Assembly: GCA_937860165.1 (NCBI GenBank)
Contig: CALMBE010000637.1
Location: forward strand, 1-10,924
DNA length: 10,924 nucleotides
Origin: an uncultured Planctomycetaceae bacterium
Lineage (GTDB): Bacteria > Planctomycetota > Planctomycetia > Pirellulales > Lacipirellulaceae
Direction: 5' to 3'
Under the pieces are notes generated by a model that searched no databases, was not told the DNA's origin, and saw only the letters and a list, made by a program, of their open reading frames with translations. Below are positions 1 to 10,924 of this stretch, piece after piece; within the stretch, counting starts at the first letter, position 1; each line of letters starts with the position of its first letter. Made by a program: the position numbers and the translations under genes.

Positions 1-19
1 CCATGGCACCCTCCATTGT

Positions 20-50
20 GAAAAAGTCATTGGCCCTGCCTATTCCAGTG
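20..50 (-). terminator. Possible terminator at the 3' end of the DUF1015 gene (repeat copy 1)
   Basis: On the minus strand the DUF1015 stop codon lies inside an imperfect stem (CACTGG paired with CCAATG, one mismatch) followed by ACTTTTTC, a T-tract typical of intrinsic termination. The same block recurs at 10620-10646 after acs: GAAAAAGTCATTG is identical in both copies and each has TCCAGTG about 10 nt later. The stem is weak, so termination is uncertain; the repeat is clear. Confidence 0.4.
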
Positions 51-1401
51 GGTTAAAAACTAGCCCGCTGAGGAGTTTTGGGTAGAAATAGGTGCTCTTG
101 GCGGGCATCCGTTCACCGGCATTGGAAATCGCACGGATGTGATCCACGGTGGCGGGCATTACGAGGGCCGCCACTTCAAAGCGGCCACCGCTTCCTTCTT
201 GGCCAGTATGGTCCCGACCTGCTGCGTCGCCATGGCGAAGTCCCTCCACTACTTCCTCGATCGCTCTCACGTACTTGGGTGCCGGGAGGTTGGGACTTGC
301 GAACAAATGGTCAACCACCAAACGGTGCAAGAGACTCACCCCCAGTTCTCGCCAGTCCGCGCAGTGATCGGTCGCTACCTCCGCCATCTTCTTCCTGCCC
401 GCATCGGTGAGTCGAGCACAGGTCCAAGTTTGGTCCTCGGCAGTAAAGAAAGCGAGTGTACCTTGGTCGGATTCGTATTCGATTTCCTCCCACAGGCTGG
501 GGGCCCGATCAGGGCCACTGCCTGCCTGTTCGCAATCAAAGTAGGGACCCAATCGCTCTATCAAGTCACTGCTCTTCATCGGAAGCATTCCACGGAACAA
601 GCGGTGGGTGGGGAGTACGATCATCCCTTGATCACTCATGGATACGCACATCATCAACACAAAGTTCGCAGGGTGTTCACTGTCGAGTGATTTGCCCTGG
701 GCAGTGAGTTCCGCGGCGAGCTCGTCGCGGTAGTTGCACGCGGTCTCGTAGCGGTGATGGCCGTCGGCAATGTAAATCGGGAGGCCGCCCATAGCGGCAA
801 CGAGATCGGTAATGACTCGAATGTCTGACACGGGCCAAATCCGATGCAGGACTCCCAAGTGGTCCGTCGCTTCGAGGGGCGCAACTCCGCGGATCGCCGT
901 TTCCAAAATTTCCTGTGCGGTGTTCTGTTCATCGGGGTAAAGGCCAAAGATCTGGCTGCAATTGGCCCGCAGGGCTTTCCAGAGTTTGAGCCGGTCGGCC
1001 TTCGCTCCACCGTGGGTTTCCTCGTGGGGATAGATGTTCCCTTCGCCGAAGCGTTCGAGCCTGGTGCGACACATAAATCCCCGGCGTGTCATCTCCTGCC
1101 CACCTTCGGTGAACACCTGATGATAAACGTAGACTGCCGGTTCCCCCTCGGTGAAGAGCACCCCTTCGCGGTGCCAATTCCGCATGGTACGGGCAGCCCG
1201 GGTGTAGCGATTGTTGGTCTGGTCGTCGCCCGGCTGGTCTTGACCAAGAATGATCCGCACACAATTGGCCGGGTGGAGTTCAACCAACTGCTGCTGGAGT
1301 TGGCTGTCGATCACGTCATACGGAGGTGCGATGACATTGCTCAGCGAGCCGACATGGGAGAGGTCGTAGCGGACCCCGCGGAAAGCACTAATGTGGGGCA
1401 T
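40..1401 (-). CDS. DUF1015 family protein
   Basis: This 453-residue protein matches the DUF1015 family over its whole length and is slightly longer than the usual 400-430 residues. The N-terminus begins in family style (MPHISAFRGVRY). Conserved blocks follow: APPYDVI at about residues 25-31, a YPHEETH segment at 125-130 with downstream K and DRL residues, and IADGHHRYETA at 211-221. No signal peptide or membrane segment is visible, so it is probably cytosolic. The DGHHR block resembles the signature of ParB/sulfiredoxin-fold enzymes such as the archaeal serine kinase SerK, and DUF1015 genes often lie near serine-biosynthesis genes in other bacteria; a phosphotransfer or serine-related role is inference only. 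The ATG at 1401 is chosen because it gives the family N-terminus, although no Shine-Dalgarno precedes it. The gene stands alone here, divergent from the small-gene pair. Family assignment is secure; function is unknown. Confidence 0.9.
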   Translation of the reverse strand: MPHISAFRGVRYDLSHVGSLSNVIAPPYDVIDSQLQQQLVELHPANCVRIILGQDQPGDDQTNNRYTRAARTMRNWHREGVLFTEGEPAVYVYHQVFTEGGQEMTRRGFMCRTRLERFGEGNIYPHEETHGGAKADRLKLWKALRANCSQIFGLYPDEQNTAQEILETAIRGVAPLEATDHLGVLHRIWPVSDIRVITDLVAAMGGLPIYIADGHHRYETACNYRDELAAELTAQGKSLDSEHPANFVLMMCVSMSDQGMIVLPTHRLFRGMLPMKSSDLIERLGPYFDCEQAGSGPDRAPSLWEEIEYESDQGTLAFFTAEDQTWTCARLTDAGRKKMAEVATDHCADWRELGVSLLHRLVVDHLFASPNLPAPKYVRAIEEVVEGLRHGDAAGRDHTGQEGSGGRFEVAALVMPATVDHIRAISNAGERMPAKSTYFYPKLLSGLVFNPLE

Positions 1402-1402
1402 G

Positions 1403-1430
1403 GGGAGGGTTTAGGGTTCGGGGTTTGGGA
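1403..1430 (-). repeat. Telomere-like heptamer repeat in the DUF1015 leader
   Basis: Read on the minus strand, the bases just before the ATG are successive degenerate heptamers: CCCAAAC, CCCGAAC, CCTAAAC, then CCTCCCC. They occupy the place where a Shine-Dalgarno would normally sit, and none is present. It may be a dispersed microsatellite-like repeat or a C-rich leader; I cannot tell which. Confidence 0.6.
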
Positions 1431-1438
1431 GGTCAGGA

Positions 1439-1444
1439 ATTATC
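1439..1444 (-). promoter_or_regulatory. Possible -10 box for the DUF1015 gene
   Basis: The minus strand reads GATAAT here, one base from TATAAT, about 38 nt upstream of the DUF1015 ATG. No good -35 hexamer lies at the proper distance. The leftmost TTACGTGA site lies just upstream, so the operator could affect both divergent transcripts. Weak evidence. Confidence 0.25.
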
Positions 1445-1451
1445 GCGTTAG

Positions 1452-1521
1452 TTTACGTGAATAGTGGATTGACCGAAATCCCTTCACGTAACTTCCCAAC
1501 AGAGTATAATGCTTTACGTGA
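1452..1521 (+). promoter_or_regulatory. Triple operator: three TTTACGTGA-type sites
   Basis: Three copies of one motif lie in the divergent region: TTTACGTGAA at 1452-1461, its inverse TTCACGTAA at 1483-1491, and TTTACGTGA at 1513-1521. Sites 1 and 2 form a perfect 9-bp inverted repeat. The ACGT centres are 31 and 30 bp apart, about three helical turns, so all three would face the same side of the helix. Site 2 covers the -35 hexamer and site 3 the expected transcription start of the small-gene pair. That geometry fits repression, most simply by one of the two small proteins; the identity of the binder is inference. Confidence 0.7.
1483..1510 (+). promoter_or_regulatory. Sigma70-type promoter of the small-gene pair
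   Basis: The -35 candidate TTCACG (1483-1488) and a perfect -10 TATAAT (1505-1510) are separated by 16 bp. Transcription would begin near 1517. This excludes the earlier in-frame ATG at 1509, which overlaps the -10 box, and favours the ATG at 1548 (or 1527) as the first start codon. Confidence 0.65.
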
Positions 1522-1547
1522 CCATAATGTTTTATGAACGGATTCGC

Positions 1548-1772
1548 ATGCATCCCAACAAGCACATCCGCGAGGCCTTGAAGTATGCCGAGGTGCAAGG
1601 CTGGGCGTTTGCAAAATCACACGGTCACGCCTATGGCAGAATTCGTTGCTGCTTTCGTCACAGCGACTGCCAAATGTGGATTTGGTCGACACCGCGAAAT
1701 CCTGAGGGACATGTCCGGCGGATTCGAAAGACCGTAGAGGCGTGTCCTGGAGAAGATACTTATGACTCCTGA
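1548..1772 (+). CDS. HicA-like small protein, possible toxin
   Basis: This 74-residue basic protein has a HicA-like layout. An N-terminal helix (HIREALKYAEVQGW, residues 6-19) is followed by a KSHGHAYGRI block at 23-32 that resembles the HicA Ser-His active-site strand, then an IWSTPRNPEGH block at 45-55 leading into an Arg/Lys-rich helix. Cysteines occur at 34, 35, 41 and 66. HicA proteins are small dsRBD-fold mRNA interferases; similar stand-alone proteins are seen in many bacteria, usually annotated as hypothetical. The start at 1548 is chosen because ATG 1509 overlaps the promoter -10 box and ATG 1527 would add seven residues ahead of MHPNKHIREAL without any visible ribosome site; the site before 1548 is also weak. 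Its 3' end overlaps the next gene by 11 nt. RNase activity and toxicity are inference; the partner is not a recognisable HicB. Confidence 0.65.
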   Translation: MHPNKHIREALKYAEVQGWAFAKSHGHAYGRIRCCFRHSDCQMWIWSTPRNPEGHVRRIRKTVEACPGEDTYDS

Positions 1773-2001
1773 ATTCTACATAGTTCTGAAAGAGCGCGAA
1801 CCTGATGATTCACTTGCGGACGCTGTTTATGAGGCCGGATTTGATGATTCGAGCTTCGTAATGCGAGGCGGCCACGCGGCGATTTGGGTCACTGACCGAC
1901 AAGGCGAATTGACCGAGCTTGTTCGTGAAGCAATCATGCAGGCTCGAAAGGGGGGACTAAACGTCAACCACGTGGAAATCGAAAGCGAAGTCTTTGCCTG
2001 A
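1762..2001 (+). CDS. Small partner protein of the HicA-like gene, possible antitoxin
   Basis: This 79-residue acidic protein starts inside the preceding gene, with GGAG (1749-1752) about nine bases before its ATG, so the two are almost certainly co-translated. The pattern suggests a ferredoxin-like alpha/beta fold: strand FYIVLKE (5-11), helix LADAVYEAG (18-26), a conserved-looking FDDS (27-30), strand HAAIWVTDR (38-46), helix LTELVREAIMQARKG (50-64), then strand VEIE (71-74). I recall similar small proteins with an AGxDD motif next to HicA-like genes, but I know of no assigned function. It has no helix-turn-helix or ribbon-helix-helix that I can see, so whether it binds the upstream operator is open. 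The opposite charge of the two products fits a complex. Confidence 0.65.
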   Translation: MTPEFYIVLKEREPDDSLADAVYEAGFDDSSFVMRGGHAAIWVTDRQGELTELVREAIMQARKGGLNVNHVEIESEVFA

Positions 2002-2010
2002 CAAACACAT

Positions 2011-2035
2011 AAAAAAACGCCGGCATGCGCCGGCG
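2011..2035 (-). terminator. Intrinsic terminator of ahcY
   Basis: On the minus strand a perfect 7-bp GC stem (CGCCGGC, GCAT loop, GCCGGCG) is followed at once by seven T residues. It lies 33 nt beyond the ahcY stop codon and faces the convergent small-gene pair, whose last codon is at 1999-2001. The plus strand has no T-tract after the stem, so it acts for ahcY. Confidence 0.92.
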
Positions 2036-2067
2036 GTTCGTTGGTCTCGTCGCTAAGCCGCAAGCGG

Positions 2068-3423
<1,356 letters not shown>

Positions 3424-3427
3424 GTTC

Positions 3428-3539
3428 GGTAAACTCCTATGGGAATCAGGGACGGAACAACTGCGAGGGGGCGGCGTCACTGGCAATCAGAGAATTTCCG
3501 CCTATTTGTATCAAATCTAACGATTGTAATGAGTTTACC
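3428..3539 (-). promoter_or_regulatory. Possible structured leader masking the ahcY ribosome site
   Basis: In the minus-strand transcript GGUAAACUC (3539-3531) is perfectly complementary to GAGUUUACC (3436-3428), which contains the last three bases of the AGGAG ribosome site. The 94 nt between the arms can form a GGCGG/CCGCC stem (3502-3498 with 3474-3470) and a weak CAAUC-type hairpin near 3528-3514, giving a three-way-junction outline like a riboswitch aptamer. I do not recognise a known SAM or SAH riboswitch consensus. Function is inference. Confidence 0.4.
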
Positions 3540-3544
3540 CGACG

Positions 3545-3556
3545 AGGGGGCCCCCT
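3545..3556. repeat. GC palindrome after the trpF stop codon
   Basis: AGGGGGCCCCCT is a perfect 12-bp palindrome 17 nt beyond the trpF stop. It has no loop and no T-tract on either strand, so it is not an intrinsic terminator; it could be a protein site or chance in GC-rich DNA. Confidence 0.4.
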
Positions 3557-3573
3557 TCAAGGCAAGCAATCGC

Positions 3574-4248
3574 TCAGCCCTCGGTTTCCCGAAAGGCCTC
3601 GAGAGCCTCACTGACGAATTGTCTTACCTTGGCAGCACTTTTCAGTCCTGGGGAATCTTCCACTCCTCCGGCCACGTCGACGCCAAACGGCCTGGCAAGG
3701 GCAATCGCGCGCGCGACATTTGAGGGATTCAGCCCACCGGCTAGCAGCAGAGGAAGTGCCAGTCTTTTTTCGCTTAGGTGGCGTATGAGATCGCCTACGG
3801 ACTGCCAATCCAGCGTTTGACCAGTCCCGCCAAAAATGCCCGGTGCAGCCGCATCGACCAGAATAGCATCCGGCATGCGACCGGCCTGCTGGCAGTTTTG
3901 TAGATCTGCGATTACTTCTGTCGAGGTTCTCGAACGATAGACCCTGAGGATGCGGACCTCAGAGGTAATGTCGTTCAAATAGTCGGGAGGTTCGTCCCCA
4001 TGCAACTGGACCCAGTCGAGTCTCAGCGAATTCGCTGTGCGATTCACTTCTTGCGCATCAGCGTTCACAAAGACGCCGACTTTGGCAACTTGCCCGGCAA
4101 CCGCAGCGGCAATCTCCTGCGCCCGCTCCAGGTGAACAAACCGCGTGCTGCTAGGAACAAAATTCAAGCCAATCGCATCTGCACCGGCCTCGACCGCTGA
4201 GTGTGCGTCGACTGGTCGAGTGATACCACAAATCTTGATGCGAAACAT
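3574..4248 (-). CDS. trpF: Phosphoribosylanthranilate isomerase
   Basis: TrpF catalyses the Amadori rearrangement of N-(5-phosphoribosyl)anthranilate in tryptophan synthesis, in the cytosol, with a (beta/alpha)8 barrel. The 224-residue length is normal for a single-function enzyme. Diagnostic blocks are KICGIT at 5-10 with the catalytic Cys7, QLHGDE at 81-86, ILVDAAAPG at 129-137 with the catalytic Asp132, GGTGQTLDW at 140-148 and LAGGLNPSNV at 169-178. The C-terminal phosphate loop reads GVDVAGGVEDSPG, where many homologues have two serines after VDV. No other trp genes are nearby, so this is an isolated trpF. The ATG at 4248 gives the family N-terminus; the ribosome site before it is weak. 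It is divergent from the ATPase gene and lies upstream of ahcY on the same strand. Confidence 0.96.
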   Translation of the reverse strand: MFRIKICGITRPVDAHSAVEAGADAIGLNFVPSSTRFVHLERAQEIAAAVAGQVAKVGVFVNADAQEVNRTANSLRLDWVQLHGDEPPDYLNDITSEVRILRVYRSRTSTEVIADLQNCQQAGRMPDAILVDAAAPGIFGGTGQTLDWQSVGDLIRHLSEKRLALPLLLAGGLNPSNVARAIALARPFGVDVAGGVEDSPGLKSAAKVRQFVSEALEAFRETEG

Positions 4249-4508
4249 GGGTCACCGAGTGCGATGGTGCTTGTCAGCCAGAAAGTAGGGATTATGCATT
4301 CTCGCCGCGAATTAGTGGGGGTCAAGCACCCATCATTCCGATTGCACCACTTCAGCACAATCTCTGAGAAAGCCGATGGATGAGTATGAGTGTTTATGTC
4401 GGTTGAGGTAAAATCCATTTCGGGTGAGTTTACCCACCGGTCCGAAGTGAACTCTGTTTTCTGGCGTACGCCTAAGCTACACACTTTGCAGATACCAGGA
4501 TATTGGCC
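4249..4508. other. Divergent spacer between trpF and the ATPase gene
   Basis: This 260-bp stretch must hold the start signals for both flanking genes, but I find no convincing -35/-10 pair on either strand. It contains a small GGGT/ACCC hairpin (4319-4331), the 10-mer GAGTTTACCC at 4426-4435 that also occurs in the ahcY leader at 3531-3540, and a perfect 10-bp palindrome GGCGTACGCC at 4463-4472, 36 nt before the ATPase start, which could be an operator. Short open frames across it have no coding character. Confidence 0.5.
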
Positions 4509-6014
4509 ATGGAAGAACTCCCGCAACACGATCGATTTGCGAGACCATTCGTCGCGGCACCAGATCCTGATCGATATTTTCCGGCCACTGCCATCGAGGA
4601 AGCCCGGCGGAAAATAACGCGGGCCATCGACCGGGGGGAGGGTCCCACGCTGCTAATTGGTGGCACGGGCACGGGCAAATCGTTACTGTTGGAAGTTCTT
4701 ACTCGACATTACAGCAATAAAACTTCCTGCGTCCTCTTGATCGGTGCCCAGGTTTGCACCCGGCGTTCGTTGTTTCAGTCGATTCTGTTTCAATTGGATT
4801 TACCCTATCGTGACCTGGACGAAGGGGAATTGCGGCTGGCGCTGCTCGAACATCTTCGACCTCGAAACGGCCAGGCTCGGCGTTTGCTTCTCCTAGTCGA
4901 TGAGGCCGATTCGCTCCCCACACGCTTGCTCGAAGAATTGCGGGCTTTAACGAACATCTCGGTGGGTGGGCAACTGCTGCTGAGCATGGTACTGGTAGGC
5001 TCGGCCGTGCTCGAAGAAAGATTCACGGACCCCGATCTCGATGCCTTGACTCAAAGAATCTCGCACCGTTGTTACTTGGCCGCTTTGGGACGAGATGAAA
5101 CCTTTCAATATTTAAGGGCTCAAGTCGCGGCCGTGGGGATAGACCCCCAGAAATTGTTCACCGACGACGGACTCGATGCCATTTTCACAGCCACCGACGG
5201 AGTCCCCCGTTTGATCAATCAACTCGGTGACCAATTGATCTGGATTGTCGAAGAAACGGGTTGTGCTCCGGTCGATGCCACCATTGTCCAACAAGCATGG
5301 TCTGAGTTGCAGCAACTTCCCGCCCCCTGGAACCTTAAAAACATCGAATTCCACGATTCGTCAGTCGAGTACGGCGAGTTGGGCTTGGAAGAGGACGATT
5401 TCGTCGACGACGATTCGGACGAGATGCCGGCCTTGCTTCCCATCTCCGGACGTCAAACGAAACCAAGTTATGGGGAAGGAATTGAGTATCTCGATTCGAT
5501 CGCGACCACGGAAACTTTGATGGAAGAATTTGAGAGCCTGCAGCCGAATATCCCGACCGTAGAATTAGATGCTCACAGCCCTCAGGCAACAAGGAATCCT
5601 TTTGCGGAAGATTTCGAGTTGGAAGAACCGGTAGTCGATAGATATCAGGAATTCGAGGCAGCCCTGCTGGCGCGTGCCCCGCGCGTGGTCAATCGACTCG
5701 ATTCAGTCTTCTCCGAACAACTCCACACCTGCGAAGGTGATCTTCGAGTTAAGTCGGCCGCCAGTGCCGAAGCGATCACGCAGGAACCACCTTCCGAACA
5801 ACAGCCGATCCCCCATGTTTTAGAGAATCTTGGCAGCACTCAAGTTATCGAGTTCGAGGCATTGAATCCCCTCGAAAACGTGACACTCACTCCAGGAGAT
5901 ATCTTGATAGTGGAGGACGACGAGTCCCGCGGACCCGAGATCGTGCCGAGTCGCAACTACCGTCGCTTGTTTAGCAGTCTCGAAAAGGGAACGCGTCCCA
6001 CTCGGTTTGCGTGA
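4509..6014 (+). CDS. ExeA/GspA-like AAA+ ATPase with long acidic C-terminal tail
   Basis: The first 270 residues of this 501-residue protein form an AAA+ ATPase of the ExeA/GspA (AAA_22) type. It has Walker A GGTGTGKS at 51-58, Walker B LLLLVDEAD at 126-133, a QRISHR arginine segment at 182-187 and the sensor-2-like GVPRLINQL at 231-239, close to the GIPRxIN motif of the family. ExeA-type proteins assist secretin assembly; related ATPases serve transposition. The remaining 230 residues are acidic and low-complexity (for example EEDDFVDDDSDE at about 297-308), with no visible membrane segment or peptidoglycan-binding domain, unlike classical ExeA. ATG 4509 is chosen over the in-frame TTG 4503 because AGGA lies eight bases upstream of it. 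The glycosyltransferase gene follows after 40 nt. No secretion or transposase genes are nearby, so the cellular role is open. Confidence 0.85.
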   Translation: MEELPQHDRFARPFVAAPDPDRYFPATAIEEARRKITRAIDRGEGPTLLIGGTGTGKSLLLEVLTRHYSNKTSCVLLIGAQVCTRRSLFQSILFQLDLPYRDLDEGELRLALLEHLRPRNGQARRLLLLVDEADSLPTRLLEELRALTNISVGGQLLLSMVLVGSAVLEERFTDPDLDALTQRISHRCYLAALGRDETFQYLRAQVAAVGIDPQKLFTDDGLDAIFTATDGVPRLINQLGDQLIWIVEETGCAPVDATIVQQAWSELQQLPAPWNLKNIEFHDSSVEYGELGLEEDDFVDDDSDEMPALLPISGRQTKPSYGEGIEYLDSIATTETLMEEFESLQPNIPTVELDAHSPQATRNPFAEDFELEEPVVDRYQEFEAALLARAPRVVNRLDSVFSEQLHTCEGDLRVKSAASAEAITQEPPSEQQPIPHVLENLGSTQVIEFEALNPLENVTLTPGDILIVEDDESRGPEIVPSRNYRRLFSSLEKGTRPTRFA

Positions 6015-6054
6015 TCCCCCGAACTGAGTACGGACTTCGCCAGCGATTCTCACT

Positions 6055-6807
6055 ATGAGTACCTCCGGTTCCATTCTTGTAGGTTTGGCGACTTACAATG
6101 AGTTGTTGAATCTTCCCTCACTTGTCGAGGCAATTCACGCAGAACTCCCCGAGGCAGGGGTACTGGTGGTCGACGATAATTCGCCTGACGGGACTGGCCG
6201 CTGGTGCCAAGAGTTCTCTACGGGCCATTCGTGGCTCGAGGTAATCTCCCGCCCGGAAAAAATGGGCCTGGGAACGGCCCTTGCGTTGTTAATGCAATCT
6301 GCCATCGAAAGGGGCGTGACCCACTTGGTGACACTCGATGCGGACTGGAGTCATCCCCCCGCGCGACTTCAGGCAATGCTGCTACAAGCCGTCGATTCCG
6401 ATGTGGTAATCGGATCCCGGTATTGTCCCGGCGGGCAGATCTCGGGTTGGCCATGGCAAAGGCGATTCACGAGTCGGTGCATCAATACACTTTCTCGGCT
6501 GATCATGGGATTGCCGATTCGAGATTGCAGCGGAAACTTCCGCATCTACCGCACGGCAATTTTAGAAAAAGTGCGCTGGGAGAATTTGAATTCTCCCGGC
6601 TACGCGTTCATCGAAGAAATCTTGTGGGAACTAAAACTTGCCGGGGCCCGCTTTGCGGAAGTACCGATTCTGTTCACCGATCGTAAGGCAGGCGATTCAA
6701 AATTGTCTTTCTCGGAAATTGCCGGTGCCGGCCGCATGATTGCCGGCTTGGTGAAAAAACGATTGAGTTCTTTTTCCCATTCTCCCAATCCTAATGCGTT
6801 AGGTTGA
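6055..6807 (+). CDS. Family 2 glycosyltransferase, DPM1-like (polyprenyl-phosphate sugar synthase)
   Basis: The 250-residue protein has the GT-A layout of dolichyl/polyprenyl-phosphate mannose synthases: TYNE at 13-16, VVDDNSPDGTG at 38-48, the DAD metal-binding motif within DADWSHPP at 95-102, GSRYCPGG at 120-127, DCSGNFRIYR at 157-166 and EVPILFTDRKAGDSKLS at 202-218. Such enzymes move a sugar from a nucleotide donor (GDP-mannose for DPM1) to a polyprenyl phosphate at the cytoplasmic membrane face. There is no C-terminal membrane segment, so it is a soluble or peripheral DPM1-only form; the donor sugar cannot be read from sequence. It follows the ATPase gene by 40 nt, probably in one transcript. 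No clear ribosome site precedes the ATG. The last codons lie in a small hairpin (6786-6806). Confidence 0.9.
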   Translation: MSTSGSILVGLATYNELLNLPSLVEAIHAELPEAGVLVVDDNSPDGTGRWCQEFSTGHSWLEVISRPEKMGLGTALALLMQSAIERGVTHLVTLDADWSHPPARLQAMLLQAVDSDVVIGSRYCPGGQISGWPWQRRFTSRCINTLSRLIMGLPIRDCSGNFRIYRTAILEKVRWENLNSPGYAFIEEILWELKLAGARFAEVPILFTDRKAGDSKLSFSEIAGAGRMIAGLVKKRLSSFSHSPNPNALG

Positions 6808-6824
6808 ACGGGAGAAAGAAAAGG

Positions 6825-6959
6825 GCCACGGAATGTCACGGATTAAACACGGATCATTGGGAGTGTTGCTATCGGGGGCAGCAGTCGAGTTCGTCCCAGA
6901 AAGAAAGAACCTATTATTCCTTTTGAATATCCGCGTTTAATCCGTGTTTCATCCGTGGC
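6825..6959. repeat. Inverted repeat with phased CACGGA boxes
   Basis: The left arm (6825-6858) and right arm (6926-6959) are 34 bp each and nearly exact inverse copies, differing by a one-base shift and a few substitutions. Each arm holds three CACGGA boxes (TCCGTG or TCCGCG in the right arm). Box spacing is 10 and 11 bp on the left and 11 and 11 bp on the right, close to one helical turn. The 67-bp centre shows no gene. I recall similar CCGTG-rich strings between genes in planctomycetes and other environmental bacteria; this is recollection, not a search. Confidence 0.75.
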
Positions 6960-6984
6960 TAATGCATCCCTGGCATAGTGAGCC

Positions 6985-7005
6985 GCACGGCCCGGGGGGC
7001 CATGC
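6985..7005 (-). repeat. GC-rich hairpin in the pfkA upstream spacer
   Basis: GCACGGCCC (6985-6993), three G, then GGGCCATGC (6997-7005) form a 9-bp stem. The single non-Watson-Crick position is C-A in plus-strand RNA but a G-U wobble in minus-strand RNA, so it folds best on the minus strand. No T-tract follows on either side. Probably a dispersed intergenic hairpin. Confidence 0.6.
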
Positions 7006-7111
7006 TACGGAATGTAATGTAACGATTGCAGGGATTGTCTGGCCCCAGGCGGCGTGTCGATTTGCCGCTGCCGGTGCAGATTCTCGGATTCGCCTCCGCT
7101 TCGACCTATGT

Positions 7112-7177
7112 TTGACAAGCTTGTATTTGTCTCACTTTTCCAAGTTTCCACCTTTCCAGAGTTTCCTGAGGGGGAAG
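7112..7177 (+). promoter_or_regulatory. pfkA leader: pyrimidine repeats and ribosome site
   Basis: A TTGACA hexamer occurs at 7112-7117 but no good -10 follows at 16-18 bp, so the promoter is uncertain. TTTCC recurs at 7137, 7145, 7153 and 7162, an 8-8-9 bp spacing. The purine-rich ribosome site GAGGGGGAAG (7168-7177) lies four bases before the pfkA ATG. Confidence 0.4.
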
Positions 7178-7181
7178 TATC

Positions 7182-8411
7182 ATGTCCAAAAAGCGCATCG
7201 GGGTGTTGACCAGTGGCGGCGATTGTCCCGGTCTGAATGCGGTTATTCGCGGCGTTCTCAAGGCATCCAGTCAGCTCGGCTACGACTGTATTGGATTCCT
7301 CAAGGGCTATGAAGGACTCTACGACCCCGTTCGCTATATCACGCTCACGCACAAGAACACCTCCGGGATCCTGAACCAAGGGGGCACGATCTTGGGTTCG
7401 ACCAATAAGGGTCGTTTCGCTGCCACGGTGGGCGTTGACGACCGAGTCGAAATTGACCCGGAACTATTGGAAGGCGTAAAGGGAACCCTCGAACAACTCA
7501 ACATCGCCGGCCTGGTGTGCATCGGCGGCGACGGTTCGCTCGCGGTCGCGCAACAGTTCCATGAATATGGGATTCCCGTCGTGGGGGTTCCCAAAACCAT
7601 CGACAACGACCTCTCGGCCACGGCCTTTACGTTCGGCTTCGACAGTGCCGTCGAATGTGCCGCTAGTGCCTTGGATCGCCTGCACACGACCGCCGCCAGT
7701 CACGAACGGATCATGGTTATCGAGTTGATGGGCCGACACGCGGGCTGGATTGCCCTGCACGCGGGAATTGCGGGTGGCGGCGATGTGATTCTGCTACCCG
7801 AGATTCCTTGGACTTACGAAAACGTCTGTCACAAAATACTCGACCGCGAAAGCCACGGCAAGCGATTCTCGCTGGTGGTCGTAGCCGAAGGGGCCGAACT
7901 GCCGCAGGGTGGTTTGGTCGGTCAAGAGCAGAATGGCGCCCAAGCCCGGCTGGGAGGAATCGGCCAGATCGTGGCCAGTGAAATCGAACGCCGCCTCCAC
8001 CGCGAAGTCCGCGTCTCGGTCTTGGGCCACCTCCAACGGGGTGGTGCACCAACAATGTTTGATCGAGTATTGGCCACTCAGTATGGGGCCCATGCCGTCC
8101 GCCTGATCGAACAACATAAACTTGGCGAAATGGTATGCTACAATCCTCCCGAGATCGAAAGTGTGCCGATTATCAAGGCCGTCAATAAACTGCGGACCGT
8201 GGAACGCAATGGCTCGGCAGTGCAGGCCGCCCGGGCTTTGGGGATCAGTTTCGGCGATTGTGCCGCCGATGCCAGCCCCTTCGCCTGGCGAGAAGAAGTC
8301 TGCGAAATCACGACATCGGAAATTACCACCTCCGAAGAAGTAGAACTCGACGCCGAGTTCACGCTCGACATGGCCGAAGCAGCCACCGAAGAAGCGTTGC
8401 TCGACGTGTAA
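7182..8411 (+). CDS. pfkA: 6-phosphofructokinase (PfkA family, group III-like)
   Basis: The enzyme phosphorylates fructose 6-phosphate to fructose 1,6-bisphosphate in glycolysis. Family blocks are GVLTSGGDCPGLNAVIRG at 7-24, IGGDGS at 114-119, VPKTIDND at 136-143 with the catalytic Asp141, MGRHAGWIAL at 183-192, EGAELPQGG at 236-244 and LGHLQRGG at 281-288. Phosphoryl-donor positions are mixed: Gly118 (equivalent to E. coli Gly104) favours ATP, while Lys138 (equivalent to Gly124) is typical of pyrophosphate enzymes and of group III ATP enzymes, so the donor is not settled. At 409 residues it is longer than the usual 320-370; the excess is a roughly 45-residue acidic tail containing EITTS twice in tandem. 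It has a strong purine-rich ribosome site and its own spacer on both sides. Confidence 0.95.
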   Translation: MSKKRIGVLTSGGDCPGLNAVIRGVLKASSQLGYDCIGFLKGYEGLYDPVRYITLTHKNTSGILNQGGTILGSTNKGRFAATVGVDDRVEIDPELLEGVKGTLEQLNIAGLVCIGGDGSLAVAQQFHEYGIPVVGVPKTIDNDLSATAFTFGFDSAVECAASALDRLHTTAASHERIMVIELMGRHAGWIALHAGIAGGGDVILLPEIPWTYENVCHKILDRESHGKRFSLVVVAEGAELPQGGLVGQEQNGAQARLGGIGQIVASEIERRLHREVRVSVLGHLQRGGAPTMFDRVLATQYGAHAVRLIEQHKLGEMVCYNPPEIESVPIIKAVNKLRTVERNGSAVQAARALGISFGDCAADASPFAWREEVCEITTSEITTSEEVELDAEFTLDMAEAATEEALLDV

Positions 8412-8446
8412 GACGTGAAAAGACGCTTCTCTATAAACCCCACGAG

Positions 8447-8466
8447 CCCCCGACGTAAGTCGGGGG
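8447..8466 (+). repeat. Perfect GC hairpin downstream of pfkA
   Basis: CCCCCGAC, loop GTAA, GTCGGGGG gives a perfect 8-bp stem 36 nt after the pfkA stop codon. No T-tract follows on the plus strand (an AGCTCC string comes next), so it is not a textbook terminator, though it could stall polymerase or protect the mRNA 3' end. A CCAG/CTGG pair at about 8471-8490 follows directly. I recall closely similar hairpins scattered between planctomycete genes; unverified. Confidence 0.6.
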
Positions 8467-8597
8467 AGCTCCAGTCGCTCACCCTCCTGGCTCGTCAATT
8501 CGCTTGAAATAGATAGCCCACTCAGCAATTCTCCGTGCTCTTGAACGACTTGGATTCGCCCGTCCGCTCCAGTAGAATTTGGGGCTGGGCGATTTTC

Positions 8598-8625
8598 TTG
8601 TCTAAACGTTGTTTTCTTGTATAAG
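8598..8625 (+). promoter_or_regulatory. Candidate promoter of acs
   Basis: TTGTCT (8598-8603) and TATAAG (8620-8625) are separated by 16 bp. Transcription would begin near 8632, leaving a very short leader that still contains GGGGAG (8634-8639), nine or so bases before the acs ATG. Sigma70-like but not tested; planctomycete promoters often deviate from consensus. Confidence 0.5.
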
Positions 8626-8647
8626 CTTTCTCGGGGAGACTTTTCCG

Positions 8648-10603
8648 ATGTCGGGTTCCAGTGGTTCTATCGATACCGTCATGCACGAGTCGCGGTTGTT
8701 TCCGCCGCGGCAGAGTTTTTCCGACAAGTCGCACTTTAAGTCGCTCGCCGACTACGAGGTGACCTGGAACCTAGCCGCTACCGATCCCGTAAAATTTTGG
8801 TCGGACCTTGCCCGAGAAGAACTCCATTGGTTCGAGCCGTTCACCGAAGGTTTGATTTGGAAAGAACCGTTTGCCCAGTGGTTTGTCGGCGGTAAGACCA
8901 ATGCCAGTTACAATTGCCTCGACGCCCACCTCGCAGCCGGTCATGGCGACCGCACGGCACTCTTGTGGGAAGGCGAACCGGGCGACACCCGCGAATTCAC
9001 CTATGCCGAGCTGCACCGCGAGGTTTGCAAGTTCGCCAATTGCCTCAAATCGCTCGGCATCGGCCAGGGCGATGTCGTTTCGATCTACATGCCGATGGTC
9101 CCTGAGTTGGTCATCGCCATGCTGGCCTGCGCTCGGATCGGTGCGATCCATTCAGTGATCTTCGCCGGCTTTTCCGCCGAAGCAATCGCCGACAGAAATA
9201 ACGATGCGAAAGCCAAACTGCAAATCACCTCCGATGCCGCCTGGCGACGCTGCAAGGTGCTTCCTCTAAAACAGACAGTCGATGAAGCACTCGCGAAATC
9301 TCCGACCGTCAAGCACTGCATCGTGCTCGACAGGGTGAATGAAGCTGTCTTCATGCAACCAGACCGCGATCATTGGTGGCATGAATTGATGAAAGATGCT
9401 TCCGACGATTGCCCCGCGACTCCCTTGGACAGCGAATCGCCACTGTTTATTCTCTACACCAGTGGTTCCACCGGCAAACCCAAGGGAATCAAGCACACGA
9501 CCGCCGGTTATAATCTGTTTGCGAAAAAAACCTTCGAGTGGGTTTTCGATCATCGTGAAGAAGACATCTTCTGGTGTACGGCCGACTGTGGCTGGGTCAC
9601 GGGACATAGTTACGTCGTGTACGGGCCGCTGTCGGCAGGGGCGACATGCGTGATGTACGAGGGTGCCCCCAACGCCCCGGATGAAAGCCGGTTTTGGTCG
9701 ATCATCGAAAAGTACAAGATCACCACGTTCTACACCGCCCCCACGGCAATTCGCGCTTTCATCAAATGGGGCGATCATCATGTCGAAAAACACGACTTGC
9801 GCAGCCTGCGACTCTTGGGAACCGTCGGCGAAGGGATCAATCCAGAGGCTTGGATGTGGTATCACCGCGTCATCGGTGGCGAGCGCTGTCCTATCGTCGA
9901 TACCTGGTGGCAAACCGAGACGGGTGGAATCATGATGAGTCCGCTCCCAGGGGCGATTGCCACGAAGCCCGGCAGTTGTACCAAGCCGCTCCCAGGAATT
10001 ATCCCCGAGATCGTCGATGAGCAAGGCAATCCCGTCGGCAAAAACCAAGGAGGATGGCTCACCATTGCCCACCCGTGGCCAGGGATGTTACGTGGAATTT
10101 GGGGAGACGACCAGCGCTACCAAGAGGTTTATTGGAGTAAAGTCAAAGGCAAATATCTCGCCGGTGACAACGCCCGCTGCGACGAAGATGGTTACTACTG
10201 GATCATGGGCCGCATCGACGATGTGCTCAATGTCTCTGGCCATCGGCTGAGCACGATTGAAATCGAGAGCGCGCTCGTCTCGCACCCCAACGTAGCCGAA
10301 GCCGCGGCAGTAGGGCGTCCCGACGAACTCAAGGGCGAAGCGGTCGCCGTGTTTGTCACCCTGAAAAATGCGGAGCCCAGCGATTCCCTCCGCGAGGAAT
10401 TAAAAAAGCACGTCCGCAAGGAAATCGGAGCCCTGGCTCAGCCCGATGATATCCGCTTCACGGGAAGTCTTCCGAAAACCCGCAGCGGCAAAATCATGCG
10501 GCGACTCTTGAAAGACATCGCCGCCGGCAAGGAAACGGTCGGCGACACCACGACCCTGGAAGACTACAGCGTCTTGGCTAAGCTCAAGGAAGTTGACGAA
10601 TAA
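8648..10603 (+). CDS. acs: Acetyl-CoA synthetase (AMP-forming)
   Basis: Acs activates acetate to acetyl-AMP and then acetyl-CoA in the cytosol. The 651-residue length matches the family (E. coli Acs has 652). Motifs run in the expected order: the N-terminal ACAS region ([16 protein letters not shown], 36-51), the P-loop [11 protein letters not shown] at 270-280, [13 protein letters not shown] at 310-322 lining the acetate pocket, [10 protein letters not shown] at 418-427 with the pocket-closing Trp, [20 protein letters not shown] at 521-540 and [11 protein letters not shown] at 609-619, where Lys615 is the catalytic lysine controlled by acetylation in other bacteria. The ATG at 8648 is chosen for its GGGGAG site and normal length; an in-frame TTG at 8609 would add 13 residues and overlap the promoter. 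No deacetylase, acetyltransferase or actP neighbour is present. Confidence 0.97.
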
Positions 10604-10621
10604 TGAGTGGGCCTAATTAGA

Positions 10622-10652
10622 AAAAGTCATTGCCGATACTCCAGTGACTTTT
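10622..10652 (+). terminator. Terminator-like hairpin after acs (repeat copy 2)
   Basis: AAAAGTCATTG (10622-10632), a 12-nt loop region and TGACTTTT (10645-10652) form an AT-rich stem: eight perfect pairs, extendable to 11 with one G-U wobble through CAG at 10642-10644. T-rich sequence follows (TTTT, then TTTTT at 10657-10661). It lies 18 nt beyond the acs stop and before the next gene. GAAAAAGTCATTG and TCCAGTG are shared with the left end of the window (20-50). Confidence 0.55.
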
Positions 10653-10665
10653 GACCTTTTTAGGG

Positions 10666-10671
10666 TATACT
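10666..10671 (+). promoter_or_regulatory. Candidate -10 box of the UPF0175 gene
   Basis: TATACT matches the -10 consensus at five of six bases and lies 16 nt before the GTG start. The -35 is poor: GTGACT (10644-10649) is at the right distance (16 bp), whereas the better hexamer TTGACC (10651-10656) is too close. The GTGACT overlaps the acs terminator stem. The expected leader is only about ten bases. Confidence 0.4.
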
Positions 10672-10687
10672 AGAGGCAGAGGATACT

Positions 10688-10924
10688 GTGGCCGTAACGA
10701 TTCAACTACCTGCCGACATCGAGGAGCGCTTACGCGCTTTAAGTCCCGACTTGGACTCCGAAGCTAAGGAGACATTGCTCATCGAGCTTTACAGACAGGA
10801 TAAGGTGACTCGCTACGAGCTCTCTTTGGCACTCGGCATAGGCCGGTTCGAGACGGATGCCCTCCTCCAGAAGCACAGCGTTACCGAGGACTTGCTAACG
10901 CCGGAGGAAATGGCGGAAGACCTG
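10688..10924 (+). CDS. UPF0175 family protein, probable antitoxin (partial, 3' end outside window)
   Basis: The frame opens with GTG at 10688 and runs 79 codons to the window edge without a stop. The start is chosen because a stop codon lies 27 nt upstream in frame with no other start between, and AGAGGA lies five or so bases before it. The protein begins MAVTIQLPADIEERL, followed by LDSEAKETLLIELYRQDKVTRYELSLALGIGRFETDALLQKH (about residues 22-63); the final part resembles a helix-turn-helix, and the sequence matches the UPF0175 pattern I recall. UPF0175 genes are commonly followed by a PIN-fold DUF3368 ribonuclease, making a toxin-antitoxin pair; the expected toxin gene would lie just outside the window. 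The assignment rests on recalled family resemblance. Confidence 0.8.
   Translation, partial: MAVTIQLPADIEERLRALSPDLDSEAKETLLIELYRQDKVTRYELSLALGIGRFETDALLQKHSVTEDLLTPEEMAEDL

Follow-up and report, generated by a model that had tools for sequence, protein, structure and literature searches.

A probable type II toxin-antitoxin module in a planctomycete that pairs a predicted HicA-fold protein with a ferredoxin-like partner

What do two very small, overlapping genes encode that lie between an ahcY gene and a DUF1015 gene on contig CALMBE010000637.1 of an uncultured planctomycete? The stretch analysed (positions 1 to 10,924 of this contig, here termed the window) belongs to assembly G000, which totals 3.77 Mb over 828 contigs, is 87% complete and has planctomycetes as its relatives, including Lacipirellula limnantheis. 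An earlier note, made from the sequence alone, proposed that the two genes, here termed A and B, form an undescribed toxin-antitoxin-like pair of a HicA-like protein and a non-HicB partner. The analysis reported here indicates that A and B are likely a type II toxin-antitoxin module, in which A, of predicted HicA fold, is the toxin and B, of predicted ferredoxin-like fold, is the antitoxin.

The A and B genes are co-directional and overlap by 11 nt, and their products are basic (A, computed pI 9.1, SHGHAYG at residues 24-30) and acidic (B, computed pI 4.4, AGFDD at residues 25-29); overlap, charges and motifs are as first described. An in-frame ATG (position 1509) is also present upstream of the A start; 12 of 19 aligned A relatives are not extended at the N-terminus and begin at the counterpart of the ATG at position 1548. 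Among nine orthologous pairs measured, the overlap is 11 nt in seven and 4 nt in two; the 11-nt overlap probably reflects translational coupling. Third codon positions vary 2.3 to 3.7 times more than first and second positions when the window is compared to eight orthologs; thus, the A and B frames are both under protein-level selection.

The pairing of A with B is conserved well beyond the window. All four A genes of the window genome (contigs C637, which is the window, C157, C612 and C583) are directly followed by a B relative. The window B is related to two paralogous B proteins (E 7e-8 and 2e-5), while the C157 B is weak with the window B as query (E 0.12) yet matches PDC-M06B, a model of the PADLOC candidate defence system PDC-M06. 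Outside the window type, 34 planctomycete A loci are noted, of which 33 were tested and one with a split A beside B (G030:C627) was left out. A B gene is directly downstream in 27 of the 33 by a profile built without any tested protein and in 30 by eye. At the omitted locus (L066, L068), the two parts of A span 449-568 and 568-663, and the neighbouring B relative spans 698-904. Viral contigs of IMG/VR have B directly downstream at 18 of 18 A loci, with E values of 1.6e-19 or better against a profile built from 47 non-viral B sequences. The gene order, the overlap and this conserved pairing of small, co-directional genes give a type II architecture, in keeping with the toxin-antitoxin-like pair originally suggested.

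Relatives of the pair are present in many bacteria and phages. In a sample of 292 genomes of the phylum, A is sparse, being found in 16, with PDC-M06B matches in 13 (the window genome counted in both). With the C157 proteins as queries, 233 of 72,556 plasmid records have A and 280 have B, mostly in enteric genera. Among 50,697 phage records, three have both proteins (two of SSU5 and one of Cyrano). The SSU5-type phages are phage-plasmids. The family comprises 2970 proteins at E 0.001, and nearly all of the 120 that were listed are unnamed or hypothetical. Two B relatives that are not of the window type (L036 in G028:C23 and L038 in G038:C745) have no recognisable A upstream.

Protein A is predicted to adopt an alpha-beta-beta-beta-alpha, dsRBD-like fold as in HicA, and its best structure matches include six structures of HicA; the proposed likeness to HicA is borne out at this level, with middling scores. 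In a profile alignment, His27 (H27) of A aligns with the catalytic histidine of the HicA GSH motif at the start of strand 2, and this residue is invariant in 112 of 112 aligned A relatives. H27 is the putative catalytic residue of A, as judged from the alignment. Sequence searches with profile A4 give no meaningful match of A to a solved structure, and Pfam and NCBIfam searches with A and B give nothing convincing.

Beyond the histidine, A has a cysteine pattern in which C41, C66 and C34 are conserved in 112, 111 and 108, respectively, of the 112 relatives; no such set is seen in the 19 HicA sequences compared. A set of 156 distinct A sequences was chosen by a pattern that itself requires three Cys/His positions and, thus, only the exchange between positions 38 and 68 is informative. 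Histidine is at position 38 only in 76 of these sequences, at 68 only in 73, at both in four and at neither in three (one of the three, L145, has a CCH tail misread by the pattern); these counts are not independent, as the H38 and H68 forms are probably two subfamilies in which loop length follows the form, and a Fisher value computed from them cannot be read as a probability. In 11 of the 156, a His takes the place of the Cys at position 41, as it also does in viral A proteins of IMG/VR (L183-L190 and L192-L199). The alternation of H38 and H68 beside three fixed ligands suggests a putative four-ligand metal site. In the model of A, C34 lies at the end of strand 2, C41 ahead of strand 3 and C66 after helix 2; the three residues would be expected to meet at one pole of the fold.

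The metal-site pattern and the dsRBD-like fold could also describe a metal-bound nucleic-acid-binding protein that is no nuclease, with A-B acting as paired regulators or helping a phage in takeover or counter-defence, and phage Cyrano carries its pair beside replication and recombination genes. This explanation is very improbable, as the invariant H27 is in register with the catalytic histidine of HicA, and there are loci with B only but, among the orthologs found, none with A only.

Protein B is modelled as beta-alpha-beta-beta-alpha-beta, a ferredoxin-like fold, with high confidence (pLDDT 94.3), and its AGFDD motif is invariant in 98 aligned B sequences. Generic ferredoxin-like folds (Atx1/HMA domains, S6 and Lrp/AsnC) make up the 50 structure matches listed for B; no HicB chain is among these best 50, a listing that excludes nothing. 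Sequence searches for solved relatives of B (profile A1) and of the long C157 B give nothing meaningful. The B relatives are either short, as in the window, or, often, long with a C-terminal part that is helix-turn-helix (HTH)-like, for which Pfam HTH scores are below the cut-off.

A divergent classical HicAB of the class 1 kind (Gerdes 2024), in which B is a strongly drifted HicB, would share the HicA fold of A, along with the gene order and sizes of class 1, whose HicB is short and lacks a DNA-binding domain, and of class 3, whose partner carries an HTH. The score of B against a HicB profile (17.1) also exceeds all 150 shuffled controls (9.7 +/- 1.9); the match itself is a 21-column tail at a probability of 2.7% from nine HicB sequences. 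The model of B differs from the beta-beta-beta-alpha-beta, partial RNase H fold of HicB (PMC10865869, in the accessible part of the text), the window B has no HicB family match, and no B locus is among the PF15919 matches of the 43 genomes of the family (E 0.001). Descent of B from HicB is, thus, decidedly unlikely, and the expectation that the partner is ferredoxin-like and not of the HicB fold agrees with the prediction.

The orthologs of the window pair occupy a particular chromosomal site. Window-type B proteins are found in 12 of the 43 genomes (at least 133 bits, the window genome included), and any B match in 16 of the 43. Of these 12 loci, 11 have ahcY within 1.6 kb of the B gene and 10 have DUF1015 within 1.4 kb of it; L017 is without both neighbours and L016 ends at a contig edge. 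DUF1015 matches occur in 38 genomes, and 30 of these loci were read: eight have A and B, one has B only, 13 are empty and eight show neither ahcY nor the pair, the last eight being judged on the available stretch only. In the 13 empty loci, ahcY adjoins DUF1015 with gaps of 80-1179 nt.

At three of the 12 B loci (L012, L017 and L018) A is missing; L017 keeps a 16-residue C-terminal remnant of A (E 0.002), while none is visible in L012 and L018. As the 12 loci were found via B, only the A-based search and the DUF1015 loci bear on the converse arrangement, and these reveal no A ortholog without B at the ahcY-DUF1015 locus. The genomes of the solitary B loci (G027, G030 and G028, respectively) hold other A-B pairs. 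Other A genes are present in three of three genomes with B only and in two of nine with the whole pair, numbers too few to weigh.

The history of the pair at this site was compared to that of DUF1015, using short alignments (74-87 columns, 8-10 taxa). By the approximately unbiased (AU) test, the tree of B is not rejected with the A data (p 0.127), while that of DUF1015 is rejected with the data of either gene (p 0.0014 and 0.0015). Distance correlations with DUF1015 are r -0.22 (p 0.89) for B and r 0.39 (p 0.065) for A. Strict vertical descent of A-B with the locus is rejected by the AU test, and the distance correlations show none. These tree tests, which are suggestive given the short alignments and the weak distance correlations, point to exchange of the A-B cassette at one site.

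The nearness of B to ahcY and DUF1015, the three loci of B without A and the purifying selection on both genes would also fit a domesticated regulatory pair that has lost mobility and serves the host, for example by control of the neighbour genes. This is unlikely given that 13 of the 30 DUF1015 loci have ahcY adjoining with no A or B between, that the DUF1015 tree is rejected by the A and B data, and that three more A-B pairs are elsewhere in the window genome.

Several observations weigh against a HicA-like toxin-antitoxin module. The HicA matches of A have middling Z scores, equalled by C-terminal parts of aminotransferases (up to 5.6), and the hhalign probability of A against HicA is 28%. 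Pfam HicA_toxin (PF07927) does not match A (0 families for A), is absent among the 25 of 33 families listed for the 112 A relatives, and has no A locus among its matches in the 43 genomes. Three of the 33 A loci (L144, L148 and L067, the last a fragment) show no B; thus, A can occur alone in the wider family. The correlation of A and B distances is weak (r 0.25, p 0.10), and the ortholog keeps to a single chromosomal location, which a typical mobile addiction module would not do. For a role of A-B in phage defence, the evidence is its listing by PADLOC as a candidate.

A type II toxin-antitoxin module remains the likely explanation, and a mechanism can be proposed. A and B would be co-transcribed and, probably, translationally coupled through the overlap. 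A would most likely cleave RNA via H27, with a metal (probably Zn) on C34, C41, C66 and H38 to brace the protein, as the conserved residues suggest, and B would most likely bind A and cover the H27 face. The long B forms found elsewhere would probably mediate autorepression through a C-terminal HTH, of which the short window B would be incapable by itself. Were B lost or inhibited, for example during phage attack, A would be freed and growth would stop.

A further possibility, with odds somewhat short of even, is that the family is a separate toxin-antitoxin class, widespread in bacteria and phages, which combines a metal-braced, HicA-fold ribonuclease with a ferredoxin-like antitoxin of an origin independent of HicB; its short forms would be regulated without a DNA-binding domain, and solitary B proteins would perhaps guard against the toxins of related modules. 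If true, an antitoxin with an unrelated fold would have become the partner of the HicA toxin fold. The analysis provides testable residues (H27, the four-ligand metal site and the B surface) for a family that extends to the phage and plasmid records of enteric bacteria.

The features of the A-B region are summarized in Table 1.

Table 1. Coordinates of the A-B genes and associated features in the window.
Feature	Position	Strand	Support
Gene A (74 aa, basic, PDC-M06A family, predicted HicA-like toxin)	1548..1772	+	
Gene B (79 aa, acidic, predicted ferredoxin-like antitoxin, short form without DNA-binding domain)	1762..2001	+	
A/B overlap, 11 nt	1762..1772	+	
Flanking DUF1015 gene, divergent from A	40..1401	-	PF06245, 8.7e-85
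Flanking ahcY (adenosylhomocysteinase), convergent with B	2068..3486	-	TIGR00936 above cut-off
Promoter-like site of A-B, TTCACG-16-TATAAT	1483..1510	+	one of two in 1300-2200
Three TTACGTGA sites, ~30 bp apart: 1453, 1484 (reverse complement), 1514	1453..1521	+	

The promoter-like site of A-B is one of two in positions 1300-2200 (0.6 +/- 0.8 in shuffled sequences), and by eye a TATAAT/TATACT-like element recurs upstream of most orthologs. Of the 'triple operator' claimed for this promoter, the three TTACGTGA sites do exist and are the window's sole exact copies, and the assembly has the spaced inverted pair at no second place; exact TTACGTGA is absent from the 19 other loci scanned (L012-L030, including all 11 other ortholog loci). 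The first copy overlaps an AGTTTA element, and AGTTTA/AGTCTA is also in nine of the 13 empty sites by eye; thus, this element probably belongs to the promoter from which the divergent DUF1015 gene is transcribed. A CGAAATCCC-like block of most ortholog loci was considered as a conserved operator and rejected, as it is 18 nt away from AGTTTA and would suit the DUF1015 promoter (by eye). No DNA-binding domain is recognised in the short B.

Elsewhere in the window, a UPF0175 gene (PF03683, 6.1e-7, above cut-off) is cut by the window end (10688-10924); UPF0175 is a family of small proteins often met as antitoxins. Similar short stretches (aaaaagtcattg ... ccagtg) are seen by eye near both window ends (about 23-47 and 10620-10646).

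Compared to known systems, the pair is not undescribed as was first claimed, since PADLOC PDC-M06A/B covers A and the long B, and the Cyrano copy is annotated as HicA/HicB. The window A matches six PDC-M06A models (best 8.6e-22), and among the paralogs, the long B matches PDC-M06B (4.1e-27) and two short B proteins match its N-terminal part (1e-12). The window B has no PADLOC match and differs from the PDC-M06 partner as a diverged short form without HTH. The name PDC-M06 was found in no paper in the literature search. In the accessible text of PMC9928086, CYRAN_51 and CYRAN_50 of phage Cyrano go by the names of HicA toxin and putative antitoxin HicB. The Cyrano and SSU5 copies share 48% (A) and 40% (long B) identity with the C157 paralogs of the window genome and differ from the window pair in their long B with HTH and their location on phage genomes; the HicB name of the Cyrano partner is not supported by the fold predicted for the related window B. 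In the accessible literature, the search found no experiment on the A-B family, only the annotation of the Cyrano pair; as far as seen, the system is catalogued and not characterised. Among HicA-related proteins, a HicA domain is validated against phage (PMC13092281, accessible part). The HicAB-like gp91/gp90 of mycobacteriophage Adephagia, likened here by description, has a toxin that is toxic and rescued by its partner; it differs in that the antitoxin gene comes first (class 2) and the partner is HicB-like by fold search (PMC11373665, accessible part). HicAB classes 1 and 3, as described in the accessible part of Gerdes 2024 (PMC10865869), share with A-B a toxin gene that comes first, a downstream and often overlapping partner, a HicA-fold toxin with a catalytic-type histidine, and a partner that is short or has a C-terminal HTH. 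The legend of 14 contexts in that part names no ferredoxin-like partner, and by word search the paper has no mention of ferredoxin, cysteine, zinc or Planctomyc-. By contrast to HicAB, A has the Cys/His pattern and no Pfam HicA match, and B is ferredoxin-like where HicB is partial RNase H. As far as seen, what the A-B pair adds to the systems already described is the ferredoxin-like fold of its partner, the metal-site pattern of A and the loci with B alone.
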